NCBI RefSeq assembly: GCF_004212635.1
Contig: NZ_PSRT01000031.1
Span: 1-64,000, forward strand
From: Bradyrhizobium genosp. SA-3
GTDB taxonomy: Bacteria > Pseudomonadota > Alphaproteobacteria > Rhizobiales > Xanthobacteraceae
Reading direction: 5' to 3'
DNA length: 64,000 nt
Below the pieces are notes generated by a model that saw nothing but the letters and a program-made list of their open reading frames with translations, was not told the DNA's origin and made no database searches. The number at the start of each line of letters is the position of its first letter. Within the stretch, counting starts at the first letter, position 1. A program made the position numbers and the translations under genes. Shown in pieces: positions 28,011 through 47,340 of this stretch.

Positions 28011-28749
28011 CGGCGACGACAGGACGTGCGGTCCTCGAGGCGGGCGGAAAATCCAAGTTCTTCGTTCAGGCAAACTACGCGTTCGGCGCCTCGGTGCTCG
28101 AGGATGCTCGTTCGGTCATCTCGGCAGCCGGGGGGAAGATTCTGGGGACGGTGAAGAGCGACTACGCATCGTTCCTCCTTCAGGCCCAGTCGAGCGGTGC
28201 GGAAGTCATTGGCTTCGCGAGCGCCAGTGCGGACTCCTCGAATTTGATCAAGCAGGCCTAACAGCGGACGGCAAAACCAGGCTTGCCGCTCTATTGTGCA
28301 TCATTCCCCAAATTCACCCGCTCGGACTCTCGACCTCGAAAGGACTTCTGGTTTCGGAAGCGTTCTACTGCGATCTCAACGACGGCACGCGCGCGCTGTC
28401 CGAGTGTTATACGCGGCAGGTCGGCGGCGCTAAACCGTGCACGATTCAGGCCGGCTGCTACTCGGGGACGATGCGCTACCTGAAGGCATTGTAGCCCTTG
28501 ACGTCGACAACGCCCGAAGGAGTGGCGGGGCCATCGTGACTAAAATGAAGGAGATGCCGACTGGCAATAAAGCATTCGGCAGGGGGCGGCTCCGCGAGGA
28601 TGGACGCAAGATCCACGACATGCACCGAGGTCAAAGCGCCGGAACAGTCGAATAGACCCTGGGACTACTACAGATATCTCTGGACTGTCGAAGGTGAGAA
28701 GGCTTTCCGGCCGCCAGCACTGGGAAAGTGTCCTTCCGTCAAAACTTAA
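28011..28749 (+). pseudogene. Remnant of a LivK-type ABC substrate-binding protein
   Basis: Pieces of one Peripla_BP_6 protein occur in order but in different frames. TTGRAVLEAGGKSKFFVQ and YAFGASVLEDARSVISAAGG continue to SSNLIKQA and a stop at 28259-28261. A second frame has GLLVSEAFYCDLNDGTRA and YTRQVGG. A third has VTKMKEMPTGNKAFGRGRLR and REDGRKIHDM. A last piece is EVKAPEQSNRPWDYY, ending at TAA 28747-28749. The N-terminal third is missing. This gene is dead by several frameshifts and deletions. Confidence 0.85.
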
Positions 28750-30811: not shown

Positions 30812-30829
30812 CGTGCGAGCTCCCACTCT

Positions 30830-31801
30830 TTAGCCGTAGCGGATGCGCGGATCGAGCCACGCATAGAGCAGATCGACCACGAGATTTGCGAACACGAAGA
30901 CTGCGACCGTGAGCATGACGAGAGCCTGCGTCAGCGTATAGTCCTGATTCTGGACGGCCAGCACGAACAGGCGGCCGACGCCATTGAGGTTGAACACCTG
31001 CTCGGTCACCACGAGCCCGCCGATCAGGAAGGCGAACTCGATGCCGATCAGGGTCACGACCGGCAGCAGCGCGTTCTTGAGCGCGTGCCGGTTGATAATG
31101 AGCCGTTCGAGCAGACCCTTCGCGCGGGCGGTCCGGATATAATCCTCGCGCAGCACCTCCAGCATCGCCGAACGCGTCATCCGCATGGTGACAGCGGCGT
31201 AGCGGTAGCCGACGGTAACCGCCGGCAGAATCACCATCGACAGGTTTCGAAGTGGATCCTGCCAGAACGGGACGTAGTCGATCGGGGGCATCCAGGGCGT
31301 GCCGAATACTGCATGCGAGATGTCGAGAACGGCCAGGATGGCGACGATCCCCAGCCAGAACGACGGCGTCGCGATGCCTGCGATGGCGGTCGTGCGGACC
31401 ACATGGTCGATCCAGCTGTTCTGCTTCAATGCCGAGATGGTCCCGAGCGGGACTGCGATAATGATGGCAACCACGGTCGCCATCACGGCGATTTCGAGCG
31501 AAATCGGCAAACGCGCTGCGATCTCTTCAGTGACGGGCTTGCCTGACCACATCGAGATGCCGAAGTCGAGGCGAAAGAAGCCCCACACAAAGTCCAGGAA
31601 CTGTAGAATTAGCGGCCGATCGAGTCCGAGCTCGGCGTGGCAAAGCGCCACGGCGCGCGGGTCGACGCTTCCGCCACCGGAGCTGAGTCGGACCTCGCAG
31701 ATGTCTCCTGGAATGAGGCGCATCAGCACGAACACGAGCGCCGCCGCTCCGACCAGCGTCGGGATCACGAGAAGCACCCGGTTCACGATATACCGGTACA
31801 T
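30830..31801 (-). CDS. ABC transporter permease, DppB type (second Dpp system)
   Basis: Protein of 323 residues. The N terminus RYIVNRVLLVIPTLVGAAAL and the loop LCHAELGLDRPLILQFLDFV are DppB features; the coupling helix is DYIRTARAKGLLERLII. It ends 18 bases before the DppC start. A 10-bp hairpin separates it from the upstream binding-protein gene. Confidence 0.92.
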   Translation of the reverse strand: MYRYIVNRVLLVIPTLVGAAALVFVLMRLIPGDICEVRLSSGGGSVDPRAVALCHAELGLDRPLILQFLDFVWGFFRLDFGISMWSGKPVTEEIAARLPISLEIAVMATVVAIIIAVPLGTISALKQNSWIDHVVRTTAIAGIATPSFWLGIVAILAVLDISHAVFGTPWMPPIDYVPFWQDPLRNLSMVILPAVTVGYRYAAVTMRMTRSAMLEVLREDYIRTARAKGLLERLIINRHALKNALLPVVTLIGIEFAFLIGGLVVTEQVFNLNGVGRLFVLAVQNQDYTLTQALVMLTVAVFVFANLVVDLLYAWLDPRIRYG

Positions 31802-31824
31802 CCTAAGCGTCCGATCCTGACCGC

Positions 31825-31864
31825 GCCGCGATGCAAGTCAGCGGTTGCGGACCGGCATCGCGGC
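31825..31864 (-). promoter_or_regulatory. Hairpin between binding-protein and permease genes
   Basis: GCCGCGATGC 31825-31834 and GCATCGCGGC 31855-31864 form a perfect 10-bp stem with a 20-base loop, starting 10 bases after the binding-protein stop codon. No T tract follows. It probably tunes binding-protein versus permease expression, as for the first Dpp system. Confidence 0.65.
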
Positions 31865-31874
31865 ATGGCGCAGC

Positions 31875-33491
31875 CTATTTGTCGAGCCACACGTTGGCCA
31901 AATCCTGATTGAGGTAATGGCTCGGACTGATCTTCCAGCCCTTCACATACGACCGGGCGGGGATGATGCGATTCCACCACGGCGTCATCAGCATGTGAAC
32001 CTGGGTGTCGAGAACGTATTTTTCGAACTCGCGGATCATTGCTCGCTGCTTGACGGTATCGGTCTCGTGAAGCAGCGCCTGATAGAGGGCAATCTCCTTC
32101 TCGTCGTCATAGTTGCCGTAGTTCTCGGCATAGACCGAGTGCGGCAAGAACTTGCCGATGTCCATGAGTGGGTTCACCACGCTCTGACAGTTGAAGTCCA
32201 CGGTCACATCGAAGGTGCCATGACGCAGCGAGTCGAAGAACGGACCGGTCGGCAGCACGCGCTGCGTGACCTGCAATCCAACCTTGCTCCACTCGTCGAT
32301 TAGCCAGGTGGCGACATACTTGTAGGGCTGGTCGACGTTTCGGTTCATCAGCTCGAATTTGAGTCCCTCGGCCCCTGCCTCCTTGAGCAGGCGCTTGGCC
32401 TCCTCGCGCGATTTCCCGATATCCGGCCAGAAGCCGGCTAACGTCTGCAGCTCCTCCTTGGTCGCCGCCAGCGGCGATCCCGGAAACACGATGCCGGCTA
32501 CCGTATGCACGGTGGCGATCTTGGCGAGCGCCGGCGCGCCGTGCCAGCTGTCGATCGCCAGCGCAAGCGCCCGGCGGACCCGCACGTCGTCGAACGGCTT
32601 CCGCTTGTGGTTGGGGGTCACCAGGTTGCCGCAGTTCCAGTCGCTGGTCTGAACGGTGATCTGGTCGCCGAGCTCGCGCACGAGCTCGTCGCGGGCTGAG
32701 GGCGGCAGGCCGCGGAACTCGACCGCGGCGCGGTCGGCGCGGATCGCATCGACCCGCACGGCCTGCTTGGCCGCGAAGATGCCGATGAATCCGTCGAGAT
32801 AAGGCCGTCCTTCGTGATAATAGTCGGGATTGCGCACCCCCTTGATCGACTGGCCGATCTCGTAGCCGGCGAACTTGAACGGGCCGGAGCCCATGATGTT
32901 CTTCTCGAACCAGCGCGGATCCTTGTCGAGGATCTCCTTCTTGTAGATCCAAGCAAAGGGATCGGCGAGCGAGGGCAGAAAAGCGTTGGTCGCGAACTTC
33001 AGCCGGAACACCACGGTCGTCGCATCCGACGCCTCGACCTTGTCGACCATGATGAAGTAGCTCTCGCGTGCGCTCGACATGCCCTCGCGGGGATGTATGA
33101 TCTCCTGCCAGCTCGCCGCAACGTCCGCGGCGGTGAGCGGCGAGCCATCGTGGAATTTCACGCCCTCCCGGATCTTGAAGATGTAGGTCTTCCCTCCGTC
33201 GGTCGGCGTCGGCATTTCGGTGCAAAGATCACAGACGAAATCGGTGGTCGACGACGGATTGTCCGGGTTAATCCTGATAAGCACGCTGTAGAATGGCGCA
33301 ACCGCGTGCACGGTCGCAAAGGTGGTCTCGCGGTGACCGTCGAAACTCGGCGGAGCGTCCGCCGGGATCATGAAGGTGAGTATCCCTCCGCGCTTCGGGG
33401 TGTCGGCAGCTGCCGGAGCGGCCACGTTCGTGAGAGGCGCGATGCAAAGAGCAGCGCCAAGACTGGCTGCCGCCAATAATGTCCTGATCAT
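31875..33491 (-). CDS. ABC transporter substrate-binding protein, family 5 (second Dpp system)
   Basis: Protein of 538 residues with a Sec signal peptide (residues 1 to about 28, ending AAPAAADT). The mature chain has the family 5 motifs FKIREGVKFHDGSPLTAADV, MGSGPFKFAGYE and RVRRALALAIDSW. A cysteine pair, FVCDLC, near residue 88 is unusual for the family and could form a disulphide. A strong AAGGAGGAGG site precedes the ATG. Unlike the first system this protein is not Tat-dependent. Substrate unknown. Confidence 0.92.
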   Translation of the reverse strand: MIRTLLAAASLGAALCIAPLTNVAAPAAADTPKRGGILTFMIPADAPPSFDGHRETTFATVHAVAPFYSVLIRINPDNPSSTTDFVCDLCTEMPTPTDGGKTYIFKIREGVKFHDGSPLTAADVAASWQEIIHPREGMSSARESYFIMVDKVEASDATTVVFRLKFATNAFLPSLADPFAWIYKKEILDKDPRWFEKNIMGSGPFKFAGYEIGQSIKGVRNPDYYHEGRPYLDGFIGIFAAKQAVRVDAIRADRAAVEFRGLPPSARDELVRELGDQITVQTSDWNCGNLVTPNHKRKPFDDVRVRRALALAIDSWHGAPALAKIATVHTVAGIVFPGSPLAATKEELQTLAGFWPDIGKSREEAKRLLKEAGAEGLKFELMNRNVDQPYKYVATWLIDEWSKVGLQVTQRVLPTGPFFDSLRHGTFDVTVDFNCQSVVNPLMDIGKFLPHSVYAENYGNYDDEKEIALYQALLHETDTVKQRAMIREFEKYVLDTQVHMLMTPWWNRIIPARSYVKGWKISPSHYLNQDLANVWLDK

Positions 33492-33629
33492 TTGCCTCCT
33501 CCTTTTCCTTCCTCCCTTGTTATTGGGATGGATTGGTTATTGGGATCAATGCTTAGAGTCACCTCTCAATCGGGTGTCCGGCGAAGCGTGCGGCGGTCCT
33601 TCGTGGAAAGCGCCACAGCTCGACCGAAT

Positions 33630-34624
<995 letters not shown>

Positions 34625-34628
<4 letters not shown>

Positions 34629-35599
34629 GCCACCGCTCCGGCCGCGGCGACGATCTCCTCGCTGCGCAGGCACGCCGCAAGGTGGCTGGCTGGCCCTGCC
34701 TGCTCAAGCGGCGGCCGCAACTGAGCGCAGGCGTCCACCGCGAAGCGGCAACGCGGGCGGAATGCGCAGCCTTGGTCGAGGCGCGTGAGGTCGGGGGGCT
34801 GGCCGTTCACCGGGTCGAGGCGCGCCTGGCGCGGACGATCGAGCCGAGGCACCGACCGCAGCAATGCCATCGTGTAGGGATGGCGCGGGTGGTGGTAGAT
34901 CGCCGCTGCCGGGCCGCTCTCGACGATGCGCCCGGCATACATGACGTTGACCCGCTTGGCGTAGCGCGCCACCACGCCGAGATTGTGCGTGATAATGATG
35001 AGCGCCACGTTGAGTCGGCGCGTCAGGCCGTTCATAAGCTCCAGGATCTGCGCTTGGATGGTCACGTCGAGCGCAGTCGTCGGCTCGTCCGCGATAATGA
35101 GCTTGGGATCACAGGCGATCGCGATCGCGATCATGACGCGCTGGCGCATGCCACCCGAGAGCTGGTGCGGATACTGCTTGAGGCGGCGGGCCGGATCGGC
35201 GATGCCGACCAGGCCGAGGAGCTCGATGGCGCGCTTGTGCGCCGCAGCGGAATCGGCACGGCGGTGCTGCTCAAGCGTCTCGGTGATCTGCCGGCCTATG
35301 GTGAGAACGGGATTCAATGATGTCATCGGCTCCTGGAAGATCATGCCGATGTCGCCGCCCCGCACTTCTCGCATTTGCGCGTCCGAAAGCTGCATGAGGT
35401 CGCGGCCGGCGAAAAGAATCTCGCCGCGCGTGATCCGCCCGGGCGGATCCGGGATCAGGCGCAGAATTGATAGCGCCCCGACGGACTTGCCCGACCCGCT
35501 CTCGCCGACGATCGCGACCGTGTCGCCCTGCTCGACGGTATAACAAATCCCGTCGACAGCGCGCACAACTCCCGCGCCGGTCCGGAACTCAGTATGCAA
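34625..35599 (-). CDS. ABC transporter ATPase, DppD type, unusual start
   Basis: At least 324 residues with Walker [12 protein letters not shown], signature [12 protein letters not shown], Walker [13 protein letters not shown] and the C-terminal [12 protein letters not shown] motif. The only conventional start in frame is TTG at 35599, inside the conserved first strand ([13 protein letters not shown]). The natural N terminus lies eight codons further up at 35623, where the codon is ACG instead of ATG, correctly spaced behind GGGAGG. An in-frame TAG stands upstream, so either ACG or TTG is used, or the gene is weakened by mutation. Confidence 0.88.
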
Positions 35600-35802: not shown

Positions 35803-38490
35803 TCAAGGTGTGCCCGTTGTGCTCACTTGGGACCCTTGGCCTTCTGCACCGGTCGAAACGACGATCGGTATCTGGCGAATATCGGCGTTCATGACATTGC
35901 CGTTGAGTGTAACGGCCGCGAACATCGTGTAACGGCCGACCGGCAACCGGTTCTTGAAATCGAATTGGAACGAGGAGCTTTCGCCAAGAGGGGCAGCGCC
36001 GGCGAGCACCACACGCTTTCGATCGTCGACGACCACGAACCGGCACTCCGGGGGCGTCCGTTTCAGCACGTCCGGCGGTATGGATGAGAGTGGCACGCGC
36101 TTAAGGCGATAACTGCGCTGAAACTTGTCGATCATTTCGATATCGCCCGACAATCGGACCCCATCGCCGGTCGAGTCCACCGCAGTGATGAATCCGCGAC
36201 GCGGGATCGCGTAAGAGTCATAGGAGCCTACGCCCAGCGGGTAGCTCAAGTCCCTGAACGCGGAGAGCACGACGCCGTCATGCGACCAGCTCTTGAGCTG
36301 ATAGGGCCCGTTGGTCACCAGAAAATGGCCATTGGCCTTGTAGAAGGCTGAGAGCGCCGCCCATCGCCTGCGTGCCTCGTCAACGCCGACAAGCGTGCGC
36401 AACGCTTCCGGCCGGTAGCCTTCACGCTCGAAGCTCTCGCTCAAGGCCGCGAGCCGCTCCTTCAGCGCTTGCGAGCGGACGAGGTCCAGCCATTCGACGC
36501 TGCGGCGAACGGCCTCGGCCTGCGAGAATGCCGCCCAGTTTCGGCCGACCGCTTCTTCCATCAGGACAAGAAGATGCCAGGGCAGCGTGCTCCATGGCGG
36601 CGCCGGGACCGCCTCCCGTTCCGGGCTCGTCGGCGCGCTGGTCGTATAGACCTCGATCGTGAAGACTTCGCGGAGGAAATCGACGTCGCCGACTCTGATC
36701 GACCGGGACGCGGTTTCGCTGCCCACGACCCGCAATCCGGCAAGCTGGCGACGTATCGGCGCGGTAGCGGTATCGATTGATTGATCGTAATGCGCCTCGC
36801 GGCCATCGCCACGAACGCCCCAGCGATATGCAAAGATGTAGGGGTAGAGCAGATCGGCCGCTGTCATCCTCGTCCCGTCGTGGAACGCGGAGCCGAGCAG
36901 GCGATAGACCAGTTTCGTCCTGGCGAATTTGCCGGGGCCGATGGCCTGAAGGTGGCCATTGTCGAGATCAGGCAGTACGGCGTCTGCGGGGATCGCAATC
37001 ATATTCTCCGCCACGGTCGATGGTTGCGCGGATGGCCTGCTCCGCTCGACGATCGGCTCGGCCAGGATCGACAGACTGACGAAGGTGTAGACCACCATCA
37101 GCGCGGTGAGCGGAATCTGAGAGGCCAACGCGCGCTTGCGCGCGGAAAATGTCTGCATCGCCTGCAAATGCGCGAGATAGACTGCCGCGATGTGTCCGAA
37201 AAGGACGGCCGCGACCGCCGTGTACCAGGCGAAGCGCGCCCCTACGATTGCAATGTTCGGCCGATAACTCGCGGTCCCGAGCAGGTTCCAGCCGTAGCCG
37301 AAAGGATCGGAAAGCAGCGGAACGATGTATTGCCCCTGGACCAGGAAGTATACGAGGTAATGCGCAAGGTGATAGCCGAGCGCGATTGGGATCAGCGTCA
37401 GGGCGAAACTCTGGGCGATCTGCCGCGGCGAAAATTGCCACTCCGTCACCGCGGCTATGATGATGCTCACCATCCAATAGGCTGACAGGAACAGGAGCCA
37501 AAACCCGAGCAGGCCGACGCTTCGTAGGGCTACCGGGCCGAGCTCGGCGACATCAGATAAACGCGCGATGATCGCGGATTCCGCCACCGACCATTCGGGA
37601 GTCGCAATCAGGCCGTCGTAAAGAACGCTCGACAGGAGCAGCAGCACGAATGCCATCATTGATGGCGAAATCAGCTCGCGACGGGCCAAGCCCGTGCCAA
37701 ATCCTCGCAACCGAAATTGCGGTTTCGGCGGGGCCGTGCGTATGTCTGTTGGCGCAAAGCGCGCGAAAGTTCCGAATACAACGGTGAAGAGCTCGCCATG
37801 CCGCAGCCAGGCCTCGCTGCCGAACAGATACATTCCGGTCCAGGTCAGCGCGGAATAACCAAGCGCGAAGGAAGCTAGGTGTAACGGCACAGCAGGTGTC
37901 GGATAGACGAGTTCGATCCAGGAAAAGGTCAGCAGCAGGAGCACCGCGGGCCAGACACCGAGTGCCAGGGGATACGGTCTGCCGAGTGCGAGATTGCGGC
38001 CACAAACGCGCCTGTATACCATCTCAACGCCTTCGAAGACAGTTCGCCATGGATTGATGAGCGGCCAGATATTTCCGACGAACGCCGAAACATAGGCGAG
38101 GCCGACCCAGGCGATGATCCAGACCAGCGTGGGTGCGAGATTGCGGTAAGGATTTTGATCGCCGAAAAAACCCGCCACCAGCATCGCGGCGAACAGGACG
38201 AGAGCGATCAGCTTAAGCGGAACGCCCAACGCCGCGACGATTTTTCCGAGCGGATAGTCGAACAGATCGATGCGCGAATAGGCGCGTGCAGGCTGCGCGC
38301 GGCGTACAAACAGGCCGACCACCACGAAAGAGAACATGACCGCAGCCGCGCCGCCGAAAAGATACAGAGACAAGGGCAGGGGGAGATCGTAACGCTGGCC
38401 GAAACCGTGCGCGCCGGCCGGTGTGACGCCAATAAGCAGGGCCGCAGCCGCAGCCAGCCAGCATCGGGTCGTTATGGCGGTTCTGGTCAC
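35803..38490 (-). CDS. Membrane protein fused to a family 5 binding-protein-like domain
   Basis: Protein of 895 residues. A signal peptide (1-28, ending GAHG) is followed by about ten membrane helices up to residue 480, with GFGQRYDLPLPLSLYLFGGA, FVGNIWPLINPWRTVFEG and ALGYHLAHYLVYF. This half resembles uncharacterised membrane proteins that databases sometimes label fenitrothion hydrolase; I give that name no functional weight. Residues of about 500-880 are soluble and resemble family 5 binding proteins (FHDGTRMTAADLLYPYIFAY; HFLVTNGPYQLKSW). The soluble part is clearly homologous to the C half of the 788-residue protein encoded at 43460. Its ATG overlaps the cupredoxin stop by four bases. 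It is the last gene of the Liv-type operon. Confidence 0.85.
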   Translation of the reverse strand: MTRTAITTRCWLAAAAALLIGVTPAGAHGFGQRYDLPLPLSLYLFGGAAAVMFSFVVVGLFVRRAQPARAYSRIDLFDYPLGKIVAALGVPLKLIALVLFAAMLVAGFFGDQNPYRNLAPTLVWIIAWVGLAYVSAFVGNIWPLINPWRTVFEGVEMVYRRVCGRNLALGRPYPLALGVWPAVLLLLTFSWIELVYPTPAVPLHLASFALGYSALTWTGMYLFGSEAWLRHGELFTVVFGTFARFAPTDIRTAPPKPQFRLRGFGTGLARRELISPSMMAFVLLLLSSVLYDGLIATPEWSVAESAIIARLSDVAELGPVALRSVGLLGFWLLFLSAYWMVSIIIAAVTEWQFSPRQIAQSFALTLIPIALGYHLAHYLVYFLVQGQYIVPLLSDPFGYGWNLLGTASYRPNIAIVGARFAWYTAVAAVLFGHIAAVYLAHLQAMQTFSARKRALASQIPLTALMVVYTFVSLSILAEPIVERSRPSAQPSTVAENMIAIPADAVLPDLDNGHLQAIGPGKFARTKLVYRLLGSAFHDGTRMTAADLLYPYIFAYRWGVRGDGREAHYDQSIDTATAPIRRQLAGLRVVGSETASRSIRVGDVDFLREVFTIEVYTTSAPTSPEREAVPAPPWSTLPWHLLVLMEEAVGRNWAAFSQAEAVRRSVEWLDLVRSQALKERLAALSESFEREGYRPEALRTLVGVDEARRRWAALSAFYKANGHFLVTNGPYQLKSWSHDGVVLSAFRDLSYPLGVGSYDSYAIPRRGFITAVDSTGDGVRLSGDIEMIDKFQRSYRLKRVPLSSIPPDVLKRTPPECRFVVVDDRKRVVLAGAAPLGESSSFQFDFKNRLPVGRYTMFAAVTLNGNVMNADIRQIPIVVSTGAEGQGSQVSTTGTP

Positions 38491-38867
38491 GGATAGACCT
38501 CGATACGAACAAGGAGAGCTTCCCCGTGAGAGTGGCCGCCGGTCCCAGACGACCCATGGACTTCCACCGGAAACCGCCCGGTGGCGTACGCGACGAATTC
38601 CATCACACCGACGGTGCCGGGCTCGATCTTCCTTTCAATGTCATAACCGTGCAGATGCAGGATGATTGATCGATCCGTGTGCCATCGCAGCTTGACGTCA
38701 TCGCCCTGGTTGATCCGGATGACCTGCGTGCTCTCCATCACCCGCCCGCGCTCGATGTGGAAGTCGAATGTGAGCTCCGCGGCAAACGCCCCGGTGATGG
38801 TCGCTCCGGTTGCCCAGGCGAGCACCGTGCCCGGGAGATATGCACGAAAGAGTGTGCTGCAAGGCAT
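38487..38867 (-). CDS. Exported cupredoxin-like protein
   Basis: Protein of 126 residues with a signal peptide (cleavage after about residue 30, AFAAEL). The mature part is a cupredoxin-like beta barrel: VIRINQGDDVKLRWHTDRS, ILHLHGYDIE, and VEVHGSSGTGGHSHGEALL. The Cys of a type 1 copper site is absent, so electron transfer as in plastocyanin is unlikely. The His-rich end (VHG, HSHG) and HLHG could bind copper in another geometry. AGGA nine bases before ATG 38867 and the 4-base overlap with the next gene support translation. It stands between the two modular proteins, so it may be part of their complex. Confidence 0.85.
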   Translation of the reverse strand: MPCSTLFRAYLPGTVLAWATGATITGAFAAELTFDFHIERGRVMESTQVIRINQGDDVKLRWHTDRSIILHLHGYDIERKIEPGTVGVMEFVAYATGRFPVEVHGSSGTGGHSHGEALLVRIEVYP

Positions 38868-38879
38868 CGCTGCAATTCC

Positions 38880-40019
38880 TCATCGCGGCGGGGTGGCCTG
38901 GATCTCCGAGATCCGATTGGCCATCCAGGCCTGGTCATAGGGCGACGGCAACAGAGCCGGGTCTGCGACGGCGGACCACATCAGTTGTCCGAATCTGTCG
39001 GAAAAGCCCGTGATCGGATTCCAGGCCGATGTCGGTCGTGCATCGACCCCGACCCGGAGCCAGCCGTTCCAGGGAAAGTCCTTCAGCTTGACCGTACGGA
39101 GGAAGATCGCGGCGTTGAGGCCCGTAAGGGAATCGAAAGCGATGTTCTCGATCCCGGCAGAGAACTCGATATTGAAATATTCGCGCTTGAGCGTGTAGCC
39201 GACGACGACGTGGCGACAGTCGCCGATGAGGGCTATCACCAGCGCCCGTTCCAGATTGATGCGATCGACCGGGTCGGTGAAATCGCCTGACTGAATCCGT
39301 TGCAGGTCAGCTTCCACGCGCTCCTTTGTGCCGACATCGATTGCGTCGTGCAGAACGAGATAGGCCTGGTACCATCCGCTCCTCGCCGCAGGCGGGACCA
39401 GCCAGCCGTTGATCACAGTCGTTGCCGAGGCAACGAGTTCGGGCAAGTTGATTTCCCTGATTTCAACGTCCCAGTCTGATTCCGGCGCCGCCTTCTCGGT
39501 GCCGAGCAGCCGTTTCGCGGCAGCGTCCGCTGCCTTCAGCTTCAGATCCCGGATTGTTGGAAAAGCCTCCGTGTCGGAGAGCAGGCGTCGCTTCGCCGTT
39601 TCGGCGAGATCGGCATGGTACAAGTAATCGCCGTGCAACGGTGTGATCGGATAGGGATGCAGGATCACATCCGGATTGTTCGAGCTGATCTTTCGCGCAA
39701 CGGCATGCGCGGCTGCGCAAGCTGTCGCGTCCGCTTTCGCATATGACGATATTGGGTTGACGCGGATCGCCACCTGGGACCTAAGTGATTCCACACGGCT
39801 CAAATCCGCCACCGAATCTGAAAAGCGGCGCTCGTTTCCGAGATAGGCGTGGATCTTGGCTTGCAGTAGCAGGCTTCCGGCGGCATCCGGGGCGACGGTC
39901 TTAATCTCGATCTCATGCGGATAAAAAGACGGATAAACTGCCGATTCGTGGCCGCTTCGCGCCGGCCCGATTACGGCTAAAGCCGACAACAGAAGTCCAA
40001 ACGTTATGCGGCTCTTCAT
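38880..40019 (-). CDS. Exported protein homologous to the N half of the 788-residue protein
   Basis: Protein of 379 residues with a Sec signal peptide (to about residue 24). It begins YPSFYPHEIEI after the signal and contains DVILHPYPITPLHGDYLYHA, RTVKLKDFPWNGWLRVGVDA and RPTSAWNPITGFSDRFG. All have direct counterparts in residues 34-385 of the protein encoded at 43460. No known family name comes to mind. Start ATG 40019 follows TTGGGA six bases upstream; the frame is open to 40076 through a TTG. The stop is 12 bases before the cupredoxin ATG, so they are co-translated. Confidence 0.82.
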   Translation of the reverse strand: MKSRITFGLLLSALAVIGPARSGHESAVYPSFYPHEIEIKTVAPDAAGSLLLQAKIHAYLGNERRFSDSVADLSRVESLRSQVAIRVNPISSYAKADATACAAAHAVARKISSNNPDVILHPYPITPLHGDYLYHADLAETAKRRLLSDTEAFPTIRDLKLKAADAAAKRLLGTEKAAPESDWDVEIREINLPELVASATTVINGWLVPPAARSGWYQAYLVLHDAIDVGTKERVEADLQRIQSGDFTDPVDRINLERALVIALIGDCRHVVVGYTLKREYFNIEFSAGIENIAFDSLTGLNAAIFLRTVKLKDFPWNGWLRVGVDARPTSAWNPITGFSDRFGQLMWSAVADPALLPSPYDQAWMANRISEIQATPPR

Positions 40020-40076
40020 GGGCATTCCCAACAAAACGAAGATTCGTATCGCGCGGGCGCGTACCACGATGCGCAA

Positions 40077-40802
40077 TCATCCGCGCAAGGCCTTCATAAC
40101 CCTTTCATCTCCGCGAGCATCCCTTGGCGAACCGCGGAAGATGATCTCGCCGCGATCGATCACATAGAGCCGGTCGGCGATACGGGACGCGGCGGCGAGA
40201 TGCGATTCCGCCATCAGGATGGACACACCCATCGCCTTGATCTTCATGACGGCTTCCGTGAACCGATTGACCACGACCGGCGCGAGCCCCTCGAATGCCT
40301 CGTCGAGCAGGAGAAGGGACGGCGACAACATCATCGCGCGTGCGATCGCGACCATCTTGCGTTGACCGCCGCTTAGCTGCATACCTTGGCGTTGCAGCAG
40401 ATCCCGAACTTCGGGAAAGACTGCGAAAGCCTGCGTCTGCGGGTCTGGACGCGCAGCCCCGTCCCGCCGGCGCGACACCTCATCCCCGAGCCAGCGGCTG
40501 ATCATCAAATTGTCGTCGACGGACAGTTCCGGGAACACGCCGCAATCCTCCGGCGAATAGCCGATTCCGCGTTTGGCGCGTTCGTGCGGGGCAAGCCTGG
40601 TCAAATCTTCATCGGCAAACACGATCTGACCCGCCTGCAGCGCCAGGAAGCCCATAATGCTCTCGATCGTCGTGGTCTTGCCGGCGCCGTTACGGCCGAC
40701 CAGGCACACGACCTCCTGCCTGTCCACGCGCAGCGAAACGCCGTTGAGGATGTGAGCGGGGCCGCGGTAGGTGTGGATCGCCTTGACCTCCAGCACGATC
40801 AT
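40077..40802 (-). CDS. livF: Branched-chain amino acid-type ABC transporter ATPase, LivF
   Basis: Protein of 241 residues. Walker A GRNGAGKTTTIESIMG, the LivF-specific GIGYSPEDCGVFPELSVDDN, signature LSGGQRKMVAIARAM and Walker B LLLLDEAFEGLAP are present. It forms the ATPase pair with LivG, whose gene overlaps it by four bases (ATGA). It also sits at the exact boundary of the 379-residue exported protein gene, with no space between. Confidence 0.93.
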   Translation of the reverse strand: MIVLEVKAIHTYRGPAHILNGVSLRVDRQEVVCLVGRNGAGKTTTIESIMGFLALQAGQIVFADEDLTRLAPHERAKRGIGYSPEDCGVFPELSVDDNLMISRWLGDEVSRRRDGAARPDPQTQAFAVFPEVRDLLQRQGMQLSGGQRKMVAIARAMMLSPSLLLLDEAFEGLAPVVVNRFTEAVMKIKAMGVSILMAESHLAAASRIADRLYVIDRGEIIFRGSPRDARGDERVMKALRG

Positions 40803-41572
40803 TCCTTTCGCGAAAATGCATCCGGCCCGGAAGAGCCGAGAAGGATCATCGCAACATCGTCATTGTTTCTGATGGCGTCCGGCGTGCCCTGGACAAGGAT
40901 CGCCCCCTGGTGCATCACCACAATTCGGTTGGAATACTTGAAGACGACGTCCATATCGTGCTCGATGATCGCGGCGGTGATGCCTTCGCCGCGCACGACC
41001 GAAGCGATGATGTCCATGATCTTGTCCTTCTCGCGCGTGCTCACCCCGCTGGTCGGCTCGTCGAGAAACAAGAGCTTCGGCCGCAGCGCGTAAGCAAGCG
41101 CCACATCTAAGAGTTTGCGTTCGCCTTGCGCGAGACCTCGCGCGGGCTCGTTGCGCTTGCTGGCGAGTCCGAACTGATCAAGAACCGTGTCAGCTTCGAT
41201 AGTGACCTCGCGGTCGCGGTCGGCGAGCGCCGCCATGTTCCTTATCTTGCCGTCGCGCGCGAATATCGCCAGCGCCACGTTGTCGAAGGCCGTCAGATCG
41301 TCGAACAGGTTAACCAGCTGGAAGCTGCGCGCGATACCGGCTTTCACTCGCTCGATCACCGATGAATGGGTCACGTCGCGCCCCTTGAAGATGATTTTTC
41401 CGGAGTCGGGAGCGAGATGGGCGCTGATGACATTGCAAAGCGAAGTCTTTCCGGCTCCGTTGGGGCCGACCACGGAAATGAACTCGCCTTCCGCAATGGT
41501 CAGGTTGACATCATCGACCGCGTGCGTGTCGCCGAAATATTTCTTCAGGCTGACCGTCTCCAGGAGGGTCAT
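40799..41572 (-). CDS. livG: Branched-chain amino acid-type ABC transporter ATPase, LivG
   Basis: Protein of 257 residues. Walker A GPNGAGKTSLCNVISAHL, RSFQLVNLFDDLTAFDNVAL (LivG-type Q-loop), signature LAQGERKLLDVALAY and Walker B LLFLDEPTSGVS. The start ATG 41572 follows GGAGGGTC; the frame stays open upstream to 42625 only by chance, antisense-free and without homology. Overlaps livM and livF by four bases each. Confidence 0.93.
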   Translation of the reverse strand: MTLLETVSLKKYFGDTHAVDDVNLTIAEGEFISVVGPNGAGKTSLCNVISAHLAPDSGKIIFKGRDVTHSSVIERVKAGIARSFQLVNLFDDLTAFDNVALAIFARDGKIRNMAALADRDREVTIEADTVLDQFGLASKRNEPARGLAQGERKLLDVALAYALRPKLLFLDEPTSGVSTREKDKIMDIIASVVRGEGITAAIIEHDMDVVFKYSNRIVVMHQGAILVQGTPDAIRNNDDVAMILLGSSGPDAFSRKE

Positions 41573-42576
41573 TTCGTCGATCTCCCGAGCTTTGCAGCGA
41601 GCTGCGCAGCCGTTCCGACGATGCCGGCGGGTAGCGCCATCACCAGAATGACAAGCACCACGCCAAGCAGAAGCTGCCAATACTCGGTGCTGGCGATTGC
41701 GTAGGTCTTCAGGTAGTTGAACGCCATCGCGCCGACGATTGGACCGGTGAAAGAGCGGAATCCGCCCAGTACACTCATGAACACGATCTCGCCGGAGAAT
41801 GGCCAATAGAGAATGTCGGGCGTGGTGAGACCGTTGAGCGGAACCCACAGAATCCCGGCAAGTCCCGTAAAGATCCCGGAAATCATGAAAGCAATCCAGC
41901 GATAGCGCCGCACCGAAATCCCGACAAACCGCGCGCGCGTTTCGTTGTCGCGGATCGCCTGCAGCGCCTTGCCGAACGGAGAATGCGCGATCACCCACAT
42001 GATGGTCGTGGAGACGGCAAACAGCGCAAGTACGTAGTAATAATAGGCATAGATGAAACGCTGGAACGAGCCGGCCCCCTTGAAATCGACCAGGCCGCCG
42101 AGCAGCGTGAGACTGGCATAGGGTACGCGGATGCCGTCGGTGCCGCCCGTCACCCAGAAGAACTTGAAAGCAAGGCTCCAGAGGACCTGCGACAGCGCAA
42201 GCGTCAGGATGCCGAAGAAAATGCGTGTGTGCCGCACGCAGACGAATCCGAAAATCGCTGCAATGATCAGCGTGCCGAGCATCCCCCCGACGATGCACAG
42301 CTCCATGGAGTGCGCGCCGAGATCTCGCGTGATGAATGCCACCAGATAGGCGCCAGCGCCGAAATAGGCCGAATGCCCAAACGACAAAAGGCCGGTGTAG
42401 CCGAGCAGCAGATTGAACCCGAGTGCGGCAATCGCCATGATCAGACCGTAGGTCAGCAGAACCGTTTGATAGGGATCGACGATCTGCGGCAGGATCGCAA
42501 GGATCACGAGAACGAGTGCAGAGTCGATGGTGATCCGCCAAATCGAGGTGCCAGTGGCCGCCATCGTCATCGTCAT
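41569..42576 (-). CDS. livM: Branched-chain amino acid-type ABC permease, LivM
   Basis: Protein of 335 residues with eight to ten membrane helices. LGFNLLLGYTGLLSFGHSAY and FFWVTGGTDGIRVP are LivM signatures, as is SPFGKALQAIRDNETRARFVG, the cytoplasmic coupling loop. Several starts are possible (ATG-ACG-ATG-ACG-ATG). It overlaps livH by four bases. Confidence 0.93.
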   Translation of the reverse strand: MTMTMAATGTSIWRITIDSALVLVILAILPQIVDPYQTVLLTYGLIMAIAALGFNLLLGYTGLLSFGHSAYFGAGAYLVAFITRDLGAHSMELCIVGGMLGTLIIAAIFGFVCVRHTRIFFGILTLALSQVLWSLAFKFFWVTGGTDGIRVPYASLTLLGGLVDFKGAGSFQRFIYAYYYYVLALFAVSTTIMWVIAHSPFGKALQAIRDNETRARFVGISVRRYRWIAFMISGIFTGLAGILWVPLNGLTTPDILYWPFSGEIVFMSVLGGFRSFTGPIVGAMAFNYLKTYAIASTEYWQLLLGVVLVILVMALPAGIVGTAAQLAAKLGRSTK

Positions 42577-43463
42577 GCCCTTCCAAACAAACCGGTGGGA
42601 CGGACGAGCAGGACCGCGGCCGCAATCAGGTAGAGAACCGCGAGTTCAATCTCCGGGAAGAACTGGATGCCGGCGGTGCGCACGAAGCTCACAATCAACG
42701 CGCCGACGAGCGCTCCTTGCAAGCTCCCGAGCCCACCGATCACGACGACCACGAAGGCCAGGATAAGCACCTCGATGCCCAGGCCAAGGACCGCCGCCTG
42801 AGCCGGCACCACCACCGCCCCGCCGAGGCCGGCCATGAAGCAGCCGATGGCGAAGGCCTGGACATAGACGCGGCTGACATTGATGCCGAGCGCGGCAGCC
42901 ATGCGCCGGTCCTGTGAGGTAGCGCGCAGTATGACGCCAAACTTGGTGCGATAGATAAATGCCCACAATCCGATCGCGGCAGCAATCCCGACTGCGACGA
43001 CGAACAGATTGTAAGTGGGATACATGAGGCGACCAACCGGGATGCTGCCCATCCGATCCATGATCGTGCCGGCCGATAATGGCGTGCGGCCGAACACGAG
43101 CTTCATGACATCTTCGAGGATCAGGAGCAGACCGAATGTGACCAGCAGGTGATATTCCTCCGATCGTTGATAGAGCGGGCGCAGCAGGGTAGGCTCGATC
43201 AGGGCGCCGACGGCCGCGATGGCAATCGCACCGAGCGGGAGGAGGAGAAGCATTCCGGCCAGGCCGAGAGTTCCTTCCAGCGCGTGACCGACAGCACTGC
43301 CGACAATCCAGGCGGAAACGTAGGCGCCGAGCGCATAGAGCGCCCCATGCGCCAGATTGACAATGCGCATGACGCCGTAGATGAGACTTAGGCCCGCCGC
43401 GATCAGGAACAGGACTGCCGCGTAAAAGAAAGAGTTGAGAATCTGGATGACGAAGATCGTCAC
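42573..43463 (-). CDS. livH: Branched-chain amino acid-type ABC permease, LivH
   Basis: Protein of 296 residues. The N terminus LSLIYGVMRIVNLAHGALYA and the loop GVILRATSQDRRMAAALGIN are LivH signatures; VVVVIGGLGSLQGALVGALI ends the core. It overlaps the stop of the 788-residue exported protein gene by four bases, which ties that protein to the transporter. Confidence 0.93.
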   Translation of the reverse strand: MTIFVIQILNSFFYAAVLFLIAAGLSLIYGVMRIVNLAHGALYALGAYVSAWIVGSAVGHALEGTLGLAGMLLLLPLGAIAIAAVGALIEPTLLRPLYQRSEEYHLLVTFGLLLILEDVMKLVFGRTPLSAGTIMDRMGSIPVGRLMYPTYNLFVVAVGIAAAIGLWAFIYRTKFGVILRATSQDRRMAAALGINVSRVYVQAFAIGCFMAGLGGAVVVPAQAAVLGLGIEVLILAFVVVVIGGLGSLQGALVGALIVSFVRTAGIQFFPEIELAVLYLIAAAVLLVRPTGLFGRA

Positions 43464-45826
43464 GGTTTTCTCTCCTCGTCCTTCGCGTCCCCGGTTCGCC
43501 CGGCCTTGCCAATTGTCCCGCCATTGCGCAGCTCGATGCGTCCGATTGCGGGATTGATCGTGTTCCCATCGAGAAAGATCGCCGCGAACAGCGTATAGAC
43601 GCCGGACTGAAGGGTGGTCGGCAGCGACACCGCAAAGCGATTGTCCGGTTGCCGTACCAGGCCTCCGACGGCAGCTACTCGGCCGTCCTGGCCAATGATG
43701 ACATAGTGCGATTCCGGCCGAATAGGCTGCAGCGTGCCGCGCAGCGTGTCGGGCTGCAGCGGCGCGCGGACGAGGCGATGGTCGCGTTGCTGCTTGACGG
43801 CGAATTCGGCGTCGGCGCTGACCAGCACGAGATCGCCTGCGCGCTCCATAGCGCGGATGAGCGCGTGTGCCGGATCGGCAAAGCCGTTGAACGTACCGAG
43901 TCCGACGGGATAGTTGAATTCCCGTACGACCTCGAAAACGAACGTGTCGGGCGACCAGGCCTTCAGCCGATAGGGTCCATTGGTCACCAGCAAATGATCC
44001 TTGGCTTCAACGAACTGGTCGAGAAGCTGCCAACGGGCCTTCGCCGCCTCAGGGCCGACCAGTAGCTCGAGCGCTGCCGGCCGGTAGCCGGTTTGTGCAA
44101 ATTCCTTGATCAGCGCGCGCAATGCCTTCAATTGAGCTGGATCGCGGAGGAGGTCGAGCCATGGGAGGTGGCGCCGCTCAGCTTCGCTGCGCGAGAAGGC
44201 TGCGATGCCGCGCTCGACCGCAACCTCCATCAGCGCAAGCACGTGCCAGGGCACCGAACTCCAGGGCGGAGCGATGAGGGCATCCTCCTGCTCATCGAAA
44301 GTCAGATTATCGAGATAAACCTCGATGATCGGGCTGCGATAGGTGAAGGCCTGATCTGCAATCGTCCGCGCGGTTTCCTCCACCCGGACGAGCTTCACGC
44401 CGCGCAGCCGCTCGCGCATCAGCCGTGTCGCAGCGGCGATATCTGGATCGTAGGTCGCCGCATTCTGCCCGCCGGCGCTCCAGCGGAATGCCAACGCAAA
44501 CGGATACAGCAAATCGGCCGGTTCCATCACCGAACCGTCGCTGAAATTCGAGGCCGACATGCGATACAGCACTTTGGCCATCGCGCCATGGCCCGGCCCA
44601 ACCGGGGCAAATTTGCCGGTCATGGATTGTGGCATCAGCGCATCATCGGGAACGCGAACCGACCGCCGGATGCCGGATTCGTCCGTAGTGCGGATTTCAG
44701 CGCGATTCTGGACCCATCGGCTATTATAAGGAACAGGCAGGAAGGCGTTGTCGCCGACGGTCGACCACACCAGACGACCGGCCGCATCGGCGAAGCCAGC
44801 AATCGGATTCCAGGCTGCGGTCGGCCGCGGATCGATGCCAATTCGCAGCGAGCCATTCCAGAGGAAATCCTTGAGCTTGACCGTCCTGACAAAGACCGCC
44901 GAATTCAACCCGGACTGAGAATCCACGGAGATATTTTCGATGCCGTCGGAAAAGTCGTCAGTGTAGAATTCGCGCCGCAGCCGATAGCCGACTACGGCGC
45001 GCTCGCAACTGCCGAGCAATGCTGCCAGCAACTCGCGCTCGAGGTTGAGCTGTTCAGTGCGATCCCTGAACTCGTTATGGGTGAGGCGCTCAAAGGGCTC
45101 GTCGGCCTGTTCCCGGTCGCTCGCCTGGCTCAGGGCAGGGCGAAGTAGCTGGTAGGCCTGGAACCATCCTTCTTTGGTCCAGCGTGGCGCTGGCCAATCA
45201 TTGAAGCCGATACCTGCGTCGGTGAGCAATGCGCTCACCGAAGTCTCATCGAGGCTCACATCCCAGTCGGTCGCCTGGACGGGGGCCTGCGGCGAGAGCA
45301 GAGACGTATCGGCGCCGGCGCGAAACGTCGGCACGGGCGCAGCGGTTGGCTGGCGCGTGGCCTTGCCCGGAGGCAGCCGATCTGCGTGGCCGAGATAGTC
45401 GGCGTGGTAGGGCGTGATCGGATACGGATGCATAACGACGTCAGGTGGCGCGCGCAGCGCCGCAGCGGCCTGTTCGATGGCGTGGCAGCGCGCCTCGCGG
45501 TTCTGAAGCCGCGACGACTGCGGATTGACGCTGACGGTGATCAGCGATTTGAGCGACTCGGCCGACTTGAGGTGCTCGGGAATCTGACCGGAAAAGCGTG
45601 GTGCAGTGCCCACATAAACATGCAGCGGATCGTTCTTGTTGATGAACTCGCGAGCCGCTCCTTCCGGATCGAGCGTCTCGATGCGGATTTCATGCGGGTA
45701 AAAGGAGGGAAAATAAGATACCGCGTGGTCGGCCCGCGCCGATGGCGGCGCAATAGCAACCGCACATGTCAGCCCCACCACCAAGCCGCCTAGTCGCGCC
45801 CGAGGTGAAGCTGCGTGCAGAGACAT
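43460..45826 (-). CDS. Large exported two-module protein of a Liv-type transporter locus
   Basis: Protein of 788 residues with a signal peptide (1 to about 32, SARADHAV). Residues of about 34-385 are homologous to the separate 379-residue protein (YFPSFYPHEIRIE, VVMHPYPITPYHADYLGHA, TVKLKDFLWNGSLRIGIDPR). Residues of about 395-770 are homologous to the soluble C half of the 895-residue membrane protein (ADLLYPFALAFRW, APPWSSVPWHVLALMEVAVE, LLVTNGPYRLKAWS) and resemble family 5 solute-binding proteins. ATG 45826 has GGAG upstream; GTG 45838 is an alternative. It lies between the LivK-like and LivH genes. A periplasmic role in substrate capture or processing is inference. Confidence 0.82.
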   Translation of the reverse strand: MSLHAASPRARLGGLVVGLTCAVAIAPPSARADHAVSYFPSFYPHEIRIETLDPEGAAREFINKNDPLHVYVGTAPRFSGQIPEHLKSAESLKSLITVSVNPQSSRLQNREARCHAIEQAAAALRAPPDVVMHPYPITPYHADYLGHADRLPPGKATRQPTAAPVPTFRAGADTSLLSPQAPVQATDWDVSLDETSVSALLTDAGIGFNDWPAPRWTKEGWFQAYQLLRPALSQASDREQADEPFERLTHNEFRDRTEQLNLERELLAALLGSCERAVVGYRLRREFYTDDFSDGIENISVDSQSGLNSAVFVRTVKLKDFLWNGSLRIGIDPRPTAAWNPIAGFADAAGRLVWSTVGDNAFLPVPYNSRWVQNRAEIRTTDESGIRRSVRVPDDALMPQSMTGKFAPVGPGHGAMAKVLYRMSASNFSDGSVMEPADLLYPFALAFRWSAGGQNAATYDPDIAAATRLMRERLRGVKLVRVEETARTIADQAFTYRSPIIEVYLDNLTFDEQEDALIAPPWSSVPWHVLALMEVAVERGIAAFSRSEAERRHLPWLDLLRDPAQLKALRALIKEFAQTGYRPAALELLVGPEAAKARWQLLDQFVEAKDHLLVTNGPYRLKAWSPDTFVFEVVREFNYPVGLGTFNGFADPAHALIRAMERAGDLVLVSADAEFAVKQQRDHRLVRAPLQPDTLRGTLQPIRPESHYVIIGQDGRVAAVGGLVRQPDNRFAVSLPTTLQSGVYTLFAAIFLDGNTINPAIGRIELRNGGTIGKAGRTGDAKDEERKP

Positions 45827-45912
45827 GTTCCGCTCCACCGCCAGCAGGATATCGCTGCGGCCGAAAAACGCGGATGTGGAGTTGCGGCCGCACCATCAAG
45901 ACCACATCCCGA

Positions 45913-45948
45913 AGACGGCCATACCTTCGACAAAAGGCATGGTCGTCT
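45913..45948 (-). promoter_or_regulatory. Hairpin after the LivK-like gene
   Basis: CCATACCTT 45919-45927 pairs with AAGGCATGG 45934-45942 (one wobble) around a 6-base loop. A further six pairs, 45913-45917 region with 45944-45948, extend the stem beyond one mismatch. It starts nine bases after the binding-protein stop codon, as in both Dpp systems of this window. Confidence 0.6.
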
Positions 45949-45957
45949 CGATTGCGT

Positions 45958-47340
45958 TCAAGCGACCTGCGGCCAGGTCTCCTTGATCCAATTGTAGGTG
46001 GCCGTCGGATCGTTGTGACCACTACCCGGCTTCGGCCAGCGCGGAGGCGCTGTGATATTGCGGATCGGAATGGTGATCATCCGAGACGGATCCAGGATTT
46101 GGAACGGGTATTCAGCCACATTCTTGCTGAAGCCCGTCACCGCGTCCTTGTAGCCCTGGTGATTGTCCGGACGGATATACAGATCACCGGCTGCCGTCTC
46201 GAAATACATGCCTTCAAGCTGGTTGATGATCGCCTCTTCTTCCGGCCAGCCACCTGTAAGCTTGTTCGCCTTTTCGACTGCCGTCTTGTACATATAGAGC
46301 GTGTGATACGCACCATCCGATTGGAAGTTCGGATACTCGTTCCAACGCTTATAGTACTTCTCGACGAACCTCTGGTTAGCGGGCCAACGATTTCCCGGCG
46401 GGAAGGTGAAGTAATAGTTCGCATGCACGCCCGCGATCACGCCTTCCGGGTGATCCTTGCCGATTGCATGCGGCGCAACGCCAAAAGCGATCGTGCTCGC
46501 AAACTTCGCGCTGTTGAACATGCCGTAGCGCAAAGCCTGCTTATACATTGCCACGTAGTCGCCGCCCCAGACCGACGAAACGATCAGGTCGGGATTCGAC
46601 GACATCGCCTTGGTGATGTGAGCGGTGAAGTCGGTGGTGCCGAGCTTCGGCCAGCCTTCCGAGACGACTTGGGTGCCGGGCACAAGCTTGCTGAACGCGA
46701 TGTTGAAATGGTCGAAGGCATTGCGGCCATAGCTGTAGTCCGGATGAATGTGCGCGATCCGCTTTGCCTCAGGCCAGGTCTGCGCCGCCGCCAGCGCGCA
46801 AGTGACGCCGTCCGCTGACTGGATGTTGGTAATGCGGAACGCGAATTTCGGATTCGGCACCGCCTTGTCCCACAGAAAATCGGTGCAGCCATCGACAAAA
46901 ATCGTCAGCGCGCCAAGCTCCTCGGCGACCGGGCCGAGCGCCGGCGTGTTGCCGCTCGATATGACACCGGTAAACAGGTCGATCTTTTCGGAGAGCTTCA
47001 TGCGGCGAAGCTCTTTCACGTTGGCGTCTGTGCCGGCTGCCTCGTCGGCTGTGATCGTCTCGATCTTGCGCTTGCCGAGAATGCCGCCCTGGGCGTTGAT
47101 TTCCTCAGCAGCCAGGAGGTGGCCCTTGAGTGAAGGCTCGCCGAGCACTGCTGCGGGGCCCGTCAAGAAGGTCATGTGACCGAACCTGAGAGGCGCGTCG
47201 GGAATTTTTCCCTTCGGCGCTGCCGGATTTTGCGCCGATGCAGGGGTCATGGCCGGTATTGCGGTTGCCGCCGCGGCGCCGCCGACCACAACGCCGAGTT
47301 GATTGAGAAAATTTCTGCGATCTACGTTTCTCTGCTCCAT
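45958..47340 (-). CDS. LivK-like ABC substrate-binding protein with Tat signal
   Basis: Protein of 460 residues. The N terminus has a twin-arginine signal (VDRRNFLNQLGVVVGGAAAA) ending near ASAQ. The mature protein is a Peripla_BP_6 fold: LRFGHMTFLTGPAAVLGEPS, AAEEINAQGGILG, ELRRMKLSEKIDLFTGVISS and YSYGRNAFDHF. At 460 residues it is longer than LivK (about 370). A GGAGG site lies eight bases before ATG 47340. It starts the operon that continues through the exported proteins and livHMGF. Ligands of this branch include amino acids, amides and urea, so the ligand remains open. Confidence 0.92.
   Translation of the reverse strand: MEQRNVDRRNFLNQLGVVVGGAAAATAIPAMTPASAQNPAAPKGKIPDAPLRFGHMTFLTGPAAVLGEPSLKGHLLAAEEINAQGGILGKRKIETITADEAAGTDANVKELRRMKLSEKIDLFTGVISSGNTPALGPVAEELGALTIFVDGCTDFLWDKAVPNPKFAFRITNIQSADGVTCALAAAQTWPEAKRIAHIHPDYSYGRNAFDHFNIAFSKLVPGTQVVSEGWPKLGTTDFTAHITKAMSSNPDLIVSSVWGGDYVAMYKQALRYGMFNSAKFASTIAFGVAPHAIGKDHPEGVIAGVHANYYFTFPPGNRWPANQRFVEKYYKRWNEYPNFQSDGAYHTLYMYKTAVEKANKLTGGWPEEEAIINQLEGMYFETAAGDLYIRPDNHQGYKDAVTGFSKNVAEYPFQILDPSRMITIPIRNITAPPRWPKPGSGHNDPTATYNWIKETWPQVA

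Follow-up and report, generated by a model that had tools for sequence, protein, structure and literature searches.

A nine-gene Liv/Urt-type importer operon of Bradyrhizobium with a putatively permuted and split binding protein and a conserved membrane partner

We analysed a stretch of 64,000 nucleotides from Bradyrhizobium genosp. SA-3 (contig NZ_PSRT01000031.1, positions 1 to 64,000 of the forward strand; the window). It contains an operon of nine genes, all on the minus strand, which spans 35803-47340 by the coordinates of the open reading frames (ORFs). From the 5' end the genes encode a solute-binding protein (SBP), a 788-residue protein (P), LivH, LivM, LivG, LivF, a 379-residue protein (A), a 126-residue cupredoxin-like protein (CUP) and an 895-residue protein (MEM), the membrane half of which is called MEM_N here. 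The importer is of a known type; what is unusual is that one of its binding proteins is rearranged and also occurs as a split copy, and that its membrane partner belongs to a family of which no description was found. We read the operon as a periplasmic Liv/Urt (HAAT) ATP-binding cassette (ABC) importer to which a capture-and-metal module may have been added, with a probability of about 0.4 for this reading. The anatomy of the operon as a whole is very likely to be as given below. The initial annotation, made from the sequence letters, had described nine genes on one strand joined mostly by 4-base overlaps, and the coordinates confirmed this: such overlaps were found at five of the eight junctions (P/LivH, LivH/LivM, LivM/LivG, LivG/LivF and CUP/MEM), the other three being gaps of 131, 51-57 and 12 bases.

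P appeared to be a binding protein of SBP family 5 (peptide/nickel type) with its two lobes in swapped order. It matched the N-terminal part of TkOppA (PDB 7fi3) both in phmmer (3e-12) and in a profile search (3.2e-21). An AlphaFold2 model of P was built from 23 sequences (pLDDT 79.3, pTM 0.83) and compared with known structures by VIA-align. Residues 325-649 of the model matched TkOppA 34-347 (lobe I; Z 23.9, root-mean-square deviation [rmsd] 2.9, 299 aligned), and residues ~34-320 matched the C-terminal ~300 residues of many family-5 SBPs (lobe II; Z ~9-11). For lobe II the figures with single proteins were SapA (Z 10.8, rmsd 4.4, 246 aligned), DppA (Z 10.4), OppA (9.9) and NikA (9.3), at rmsd 4.4-6.5. 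The two-lobed fold of family 5 (cluster C) was recognised in P on this predicted model only, and the canonical lobe order was not kept, as the C-terminal part of the fold stands first. P had no match to Pfam SBP_bac_5 (gathering score 32.4 bits), and among three near relatives of P only that of locus L070 had one, at 13.8 bits.

Two distant relatives bridged P to family 5. The 840- and 861-residue binding proteins at L080:7219-9738 and L081:10036-12618 scored 50.4 and 55.6 bits against the same gathering score, and in both of them SBP_bac_5 positions ~147-355 sit at the N-terminus, at residues 51-285 (E 2.5e-13 and 6.2e-15), so that their family-5 lobes are swapped. Positions 230-510 of a family-5 profile from the window's genome aligned to L080 50-356 (probability 94.9), and P 240-750 aligned to L080 311-813 (probability 99.7). 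The structure comparison and the two bridging relatives indicate that P is a putative circular permutant of family 5. In the L080 locus a BPD_transp_1 permease and an oligo_HPY ATPase (Dpp/Opp type) adjoin the permuted SBP, which means that such proteins also occur with the usual partner. While lobe I of P is like TkOppA and lobe II like SapA, OppA, DppA and NikA, P differs from these proteins in its swapped lobes, in an extra C-terminal beta stretch, in having LivHMGF rather than a Dpp/Opp partner, and in that one copy is spread over two genes. According to PMC4990184, the glucose-binding protein Tp0684/MglB-2 is a natural circular permutation of an ABC binding protein; it belongs to cluster B and part of one lobe has moved, whereas in P whole lobes of a family-5 protein would be swapped. 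A search of the open literature, as far as its texts were available, turned up only Tp0684 (cluster B) and no permuted family-5 binding protein.

The initial annotation had treated the 788-, 379- and 895-residue proteins as distinct parts. All three are present, but they are built from two shared modules, which it overlooked. As shown by BLAST among the nine proteins, P consists of module A (residues ~1-390) and module B (~394-770). The 379-residue protein is module A alone and shares ~42% of 372 aligned residues with the N-terminal half of P; residues ~500-876 of MEM are module B alone and share ~41% of 383 with its C-terminal half. In the tree of module A (37 rows), P and the 379-residue protein were placed on opposite sides of one branch (support 100/99). 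In the tree of module B (36 rows), P and the MEM-borne copies were likewise parted by one branch (82/95), which was present in 83% of 200 bootstrap trees. Because both trees part P from the split copy at one branch, one duplication and one split suffice. A and the membrane-borne module B look like a duplicated copy of P that was split in two, with its second half fused behind the ten-helix MEM_N and the CUP gene between them. A profile match to TkOppA was found for module B of MEM (E 2.8e-14), and a profile of A had no match among PDB sequences up to E 5. P, A and CUP matched no Pfam family up to E 0.1, the 895-residue protein had one sub-threshold Pfam match only (SBP_bac_5, E 0.02), and single-sequence scans with Pfam and NCBIfam brought none of P, A, CUP and MEM above a cut-off.

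The ABC half has the parts of a Liv/Urt importer, namely a Peripla_BP_6 SBP, two BPD_transp_2 permeases and two ABC ATPases in one operon. This agrees with the LivK-like protein and LivHMGF of the initial annotation; the twin-arginine (Tat)-like motif that it had reported was seen by eye as RRNFL at the start of SBP. Both LivKHMGF and UrtABCDE share these parts; unlike them, the window operon has in addition a further binding protein resembling family 5 and a split copy of it fused to a membrane protein, and its Urt scores are below cut-off. For SBP and all four ABC subunits the best NCBIfam models were Urt models, each below the equivalog cut-off: 95.7 against 492.75 bits for SBP (UrtA), 169.1 against 250.3 for LivH (UrtB), 145.9 against 296.2 for LivM (UrtC), 187.1 against 304.1 for LivG (UrtD) and 201.1 against 285.8 for LivF (UrtE). 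The label Liv should therefore not be taken to mean branched-chain amino acids, and uptake of these was rejected because the ABC parts score nearest to Urt. Urea transport was also rejected as the identity of the system, since all five scores were under cut-off. The Urt-like scores, together with a nicotinate-linked sister arrangement described below, suggest a small polar nitrogen compound as the substrate rather than branched-chain amino acids. Genes that look by eye like those of hydantoinases, amidases or amidohydrolases flank some of the related loci; none is constant, and they were not used for the substrate. The window's genome (8.7 Mb) contains 72 Peripla_BP_6 matches.

MEM_N was predicted from hydropathy and charge in 27 aligned sequences to have 10 transmembrane helices, with positive loops inside and both ends in the periplasm. 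Since both ends are predicted to lie outside, module B is placed in the periplasm. Residues H377, H433 and M465 were invariant in 37 MEM_N sequences, and H441 was found in 36 of the 37 (Met in L144). D292 and H28 were each conserved in 33, and H28 stands directly after a signal-peptidase-like AxA in the window protein, as seen by eye. MEM_N belongs to an unnamed membrane family of bacteria and archaea with near-invariant His377, His433, His441 and Met465. Eleven MEM_N-type proteins were covered by five Pfam scans with E limits of 0.1, 0.05, 1, 0.001 and 0.1, and no match exceeded the gathering score; the sub-threshold ones were SBP_bac_5 (window) and TMEM191C (L038). The CopCD/YcnJ copper importers are defined by a CopD domain, which was not found by Pfam in the 11 proteins. 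No Pfam match to subunit A, B or C (Pmo/Amo) of copper membrane monooxygenases (CuMMOs) was found in the nine proteins of the operon or in the 11 MEM_N-type proteins. An open-literature search on possible names or neighbours of the family found no description of it. Fenitrothion hydrolase FedAB was considered as the identity of the family and dropped, as a literature search led only to papers on other topics.

With the CUP profile, multicopper oxidases, nitrosocyanin and cytochrome oxidase subunit II were found. The similarity to the cupredoxin superfamily (2zwn, 4.9e-6; 5zl1, 2.3e-5; nitrosocyanin 1iby, 9.5e-4) upholds the initial cupredoxin-like label as far as the profile is concerned, and His71-Leu-His73 was invariant in 18 aligned sequences. 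However, type-1 (blue) copper cupredoxins have a Cys ligand in the C-terminal loop, and the window CUP has no Cys in its mature part, after the signal peptide. It is thus not of the type-1 kind.

The nine-gene set recurs, and the conserved link with livHMGF and the cupredoxin in other genera, which had been set beforehand as a check, was found. The full order with intact genes was present in 10 of 23 loci of a named-genome scan. The count rises to 12 with L050 (Bradyrhizobium sp. AS23.2), where the 895-residue gene lies in two overlapping frames (L050:11788-14512) through a frameshift or sequencing error, and with L064, where both outer genes are cut by contig ends. All nine genes were also found in L083, from a genome of another family of the class. 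Six of the 23 loci (L060, L061, L065-L068; five from Rokubacteria and one labelled Deltaproteobacteria) have SBP-P-LivHMGF and no A, CUP or MEM in the stretch examined. The reverse was found in L071 (Rokubacteria), with A and MEM, CUP on the other strand and no ABC genes in its 21 kb. Four loci (L059, L063, L069 and L070, the last with P before SBP) were too short or incomplete to judge. As core-only loci and the A-CUP-MEM-only L071 exist beside nine-gene loci, the system consists of two half-systems that are joined in alphaproteobacterial loci. The two are strongly linked, though either can occur by itself, and the system as a whole is uncommon, with a patchy distribution. Own genome included, MEM was matched in 12 of 149 genomes of a family sample, in which 0 of 6 other genomes of the same genus had it, and P in 3 of 385 genomes of the class; P was also matched in 3 of 398 genomes of a phylum sample (its own and those of the distant L080 and L081, two genomes of one family). 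The closest named contig match was Bradyrhizobium centrolobii, with 98% in P. Where A-CUP-MEM is missing, proteins that look alike by eye adjoin SBP-P-LivHMGF at L060:15645-16523, L061:7664-8446 and L067:7578-8273; the first two were scanned and matched no Pfam family.

MEM_N also occurs outside this operon. It was found by tblastn on 63 plasmid records, including those of rhizobia, Sulfitobacter, mycobacteria, Pseudonocardia and haloarchaea, and by profile search in 41 of 299 genomes of the window's phylum (its own, 14 strong matches, 25 of a distant subfamily and one fragment-like). A distant subfamily in other genomes of the phylum (L123-L137) was seen as stop-to-stop ORFs of 509-745 amino acids. 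Partners were counted in 31 unfused MEM_N loci of 12-20 kb each, L138-L147 among them coming from 9 of the 14 strong-match genomes other than the window's own. A CUP relative was near MEM_N in 10 of the 31, directly upstream in L037, L038, L040, L041, L045, L048, L088, L089 and L093 and ~3 kb off in L146; in L040 a Peripla_BP_5 binding protein lies nearby and the rest of a Liv set is absent. A complete LivKHMGF of another lineage adjoins MEM_N in 12 (L042, L046, L084-L086 and L138-L144), and the tree placed all 12 in one MEM_N clade. Among 14 short loci (L109-L122), a Liv-type SBP or LivF/LivG was found within 1.5 kb in 11, and likewise for L122 in the longer stretch L144.

Eight of the 12 Liv-linked stretches (L042, L046, L138-L140, L142-L144) contain relatives of 6-hydroxynicotinate reductase (HNR), of flavin adenine dinucleotide-binding proteins or of molybdenum hydroxylases, and two (L042, L143) a PCu(A)C relative. 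These nicotinate/6-hydroxynicotinate clusters have a Liv-type importer next to MEM_N, as in the window operon, but the importer is of another lineage (LivH 34-38% identical), MEM_N is unfused, and modules A/B and CUP are absent. The LivH tree separated the nicotinate-linked lineage from that of the window, with long branches flagged. In the MEM_N tree the fused proteins formed a group (100/96) with proteobacterial proteins that are paired with CUP, and the Liv-linked ones a separate clade (100/100). Because LivH lineages and MEM_N clades both separate, the association of MEM_N with Liv importers probably arose twice.

A copper protein or metal P-type ATPase was annotated in 7 of 14 MEM_N neighbourhoods, a count that is indicative only, as the annotation words were picked after the neighbourhoods had been seen and the control records all had MEM_N matches. 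The genes were those of CuMMO (L044, L088), multicopper oxidase (L047, L087), PCu(A)C (L042), SCO (L092) and P-type ATPase (L090); four further neighbourhoods (L084-L086, L093) lack annotation and stand outside the 14. The controls, five 45-kb stretches from five of the same plasmids, contain one such gene, a P-type ATPase. In Mycolicibacterium chubuense NBB4 and Mycobacterium dioxanotrophicus PH-06 (L044 and L088) a MEM_N gene annotated as hypothetical protein adjoins copper monooxygenase genes. The membrane family is that of the window, and in PH-06 a CUP-type gene stands directly before it; the small gene before MEM_N in NBB4 was not matched by the CUP profile. Unlike in the window operon, modules A/B and a Liv set were not found in these two loci.

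The initial annotation had proposed that the substrate is captured, bound to a metal or chemically processed in the periplasm before uptake. This interpretation was supported in part, as a conserved system exists and periplasmic capture fits extra exported parts that are solute-binding-protein modules. Metal binding has indirect support, from the near-invariant His/Met of the membrane half and the copper-linked neighbours of its relatives. We favour a metal role for MEM_N and CUP, and put copper as the metal at even odds. In a tentative scheme, on balance somewhat doubtful as a whole, A and the membrane-tethered B would associate into a complete binding protein again, held at the membrane protein. 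P and A/B would capture a small metal-chelating nitrogen compound, which may be peptide-like, amide-like or N-heterocyclic. CUP and the near-invariant His/Met of MEM_N would bind the metal, most likely copper; the module of CUP and the membrane protein would take it over, and the organic part would pass through the Tat-type SBP into LivHMGF. The fullest form of this proposal, which we hold to be unlikely, is that MEM_N and CUP represent a new prokaryotic membrane metalloprotein family that moves or handles copper, that the fusion to half of a split permuted SBP makes a docking receptor, and that a copper chelate is captured and demetallated at the membrane before a Liv-type ABC transporter imports its organic part.

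Several observations weigh against reading the operon as an importer with a capture-and-metal module. The Pfam/NCBIfam scans of the nine genes showed neither a TonB receptor nor a metallophore gene, and the six core-only loci have the ABC genes with no metal module next to them. In the unfused loci CUP is missing from all 12 that are Liv-linked, and a full Liv set from all 10 with CUP, so that only the fused operon joins Liv and CUP. The model of the 895-residue protein was poor (pLDDT 59, pTM 0.48), and the VIA-align rows shown for it are confined to residues 481-895, with none on the helices, so that the membrane half may still have a known fold. As to P, the permutation of lobe II rests on a predicted model and moderate Z values, and when P was compared directly, by profile, with 15 family-5 sequences from its own genome, two of them (L097, L102) ORFs probably from the wrong strand, the matches were short motifs in lobe I only. 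The selection of words behind the copper count and its controls belongs here as well, and the His/Met of MEM_N could ligate haem instead of copper.

Haem or copper would also serve a membrane redox enzyme formed by the membrane protein and CUP, which would oxidise or reduce a compound held on P or A/B while LivHMGF imports the product. The near-invariant His/His/His/Met in membrane helices suits such sites, and relatives stand beside genes of copper monooxygenases, multicopper oxidases, a methanol dehydrogenase and molybdenum hydroxylases. We consider this enzyme rather improbable, as the Cys of type-1 copper sites that transfer electrons is missing from the window CUP, Pfam scans of the 11 MEM_N-type proteins found neither a haem nor a CuMMO domain, and the neighbours vary in chemistry. 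Alternatively, MEM_N and CUP might be a dedicated device for copper import or delivery, merely co-regulated with an unrelated amide/amine importer and permuted binding proteins. Ten of the 31 unfused loci have MEM_N and CUP but no Liv set, and the halves are apart in one Rokubacteria locus and the six core-only loci; but module B is fused in frame to MEM_N, module A is adjacent in loci that have both, and a different LivKHMGF accompanies another MEM_N clade, which makes the separate device quite unlikely. The resemblance of SBP and the ABC subunits to Urt proteins, and the six loci with the core and no metal module, would fit plain high-affinity uptake of a small amide- or urea-like compound, with the extra proteins as scaffolds or sensors without a metal role. 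Near-invariant His/Met, the cupredoxin fold and copper-linked neighbours, set against the controls, speak against it, and we give plain uptake very little chance.

If the importer with a capture-and-metal module is real, binding proteins of two classes would serve one ABC importer, and one class would have been permuted and later divided into a soluble part and a part on a membrane receptor. An entry point would also be gained to an unannotated bacterial and archaeal membrane family whose genes neighbour those of copper monooxygenases, multicopper oxidases and nicotinate-linked importers. With two binding proteins, a split tethered one and a cupredoxin, the operon makes copper-linked nutrient uptake directly testable in named Bradyrhizobium strains. 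No system of this composition was found in an open-literature search.

Table 1. Genes and gene parts of the operon, listed from its 5' end. Coordinates refer to the window.
Feature	Coordinates	Strand	Basis
SBP, Liv/Urt-type solute-binding protein, 460 aa	45958..47340	-	Peripla_BP_6, Pfam 3.3e-56
P, 788-aa exported protein, module A + module B; putative permuted family-5 SBP with extra C-terminal beta stretch	43460..45826	-	AlphaFold, VIA-align, bridging relatives
LivH/UrtB-type permease	42573..43463	-	BPD_transp_2, 3.4e-37
LivM/UrtC-type permease, 335 aa	41569..42576	-	BPD_transp_2, 6.2e-42
LivG/UrtD-type ATPase, ATG at 41572	40799..41572	-	ABC_tran, 2.4e-29
LivF/UrtE-type ATPase	40077..40802	-	ABC_tran, 6.6e-29
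A, 379-aa exported protein, module A alone; apparent half of split P copy	38880..40019	-	Identity to N-terminal half of P
CUP, 126-aa exported cupredoxin-fold protein	38487..38867	-	Profile matches and alignment of 18
MEM_N, membrane half of 895-aa protein, residues 1-490	37021..38490	-	Hydropathy/charge, 27 sequences
Module B, periplasmic half of 895-aa protein; apparent other half of split copy	35803..37020	-	Identity to C-terminal half of P; TkOppA profile match

A complete Dpp/Opp-type ABC operon, with two ATPases, a family-5 binding protein and two permeases, lies at 29909-35599 (-), ~200 bases past the 895-residue gene, and two ATPase genes stand at the corresponding downstream place in B. 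centrolobii (L049). This operon was rejected as a part of the system, as L051, L052, L054-L058 and L062 have no same-strand LivG-like ATPase in ~2 kb downstream. Elsewhere in the window, fragments of a decayed Peripla_BP_6 binding-protein gene with internal stops were found at 27983-28527 (+). DUF4147 and MOFRL domains were found in two ORFs with a 4-base overlap at 54451-55805 (-); the pair resembles a glycerate 2-kinase that is split or frameshifted.

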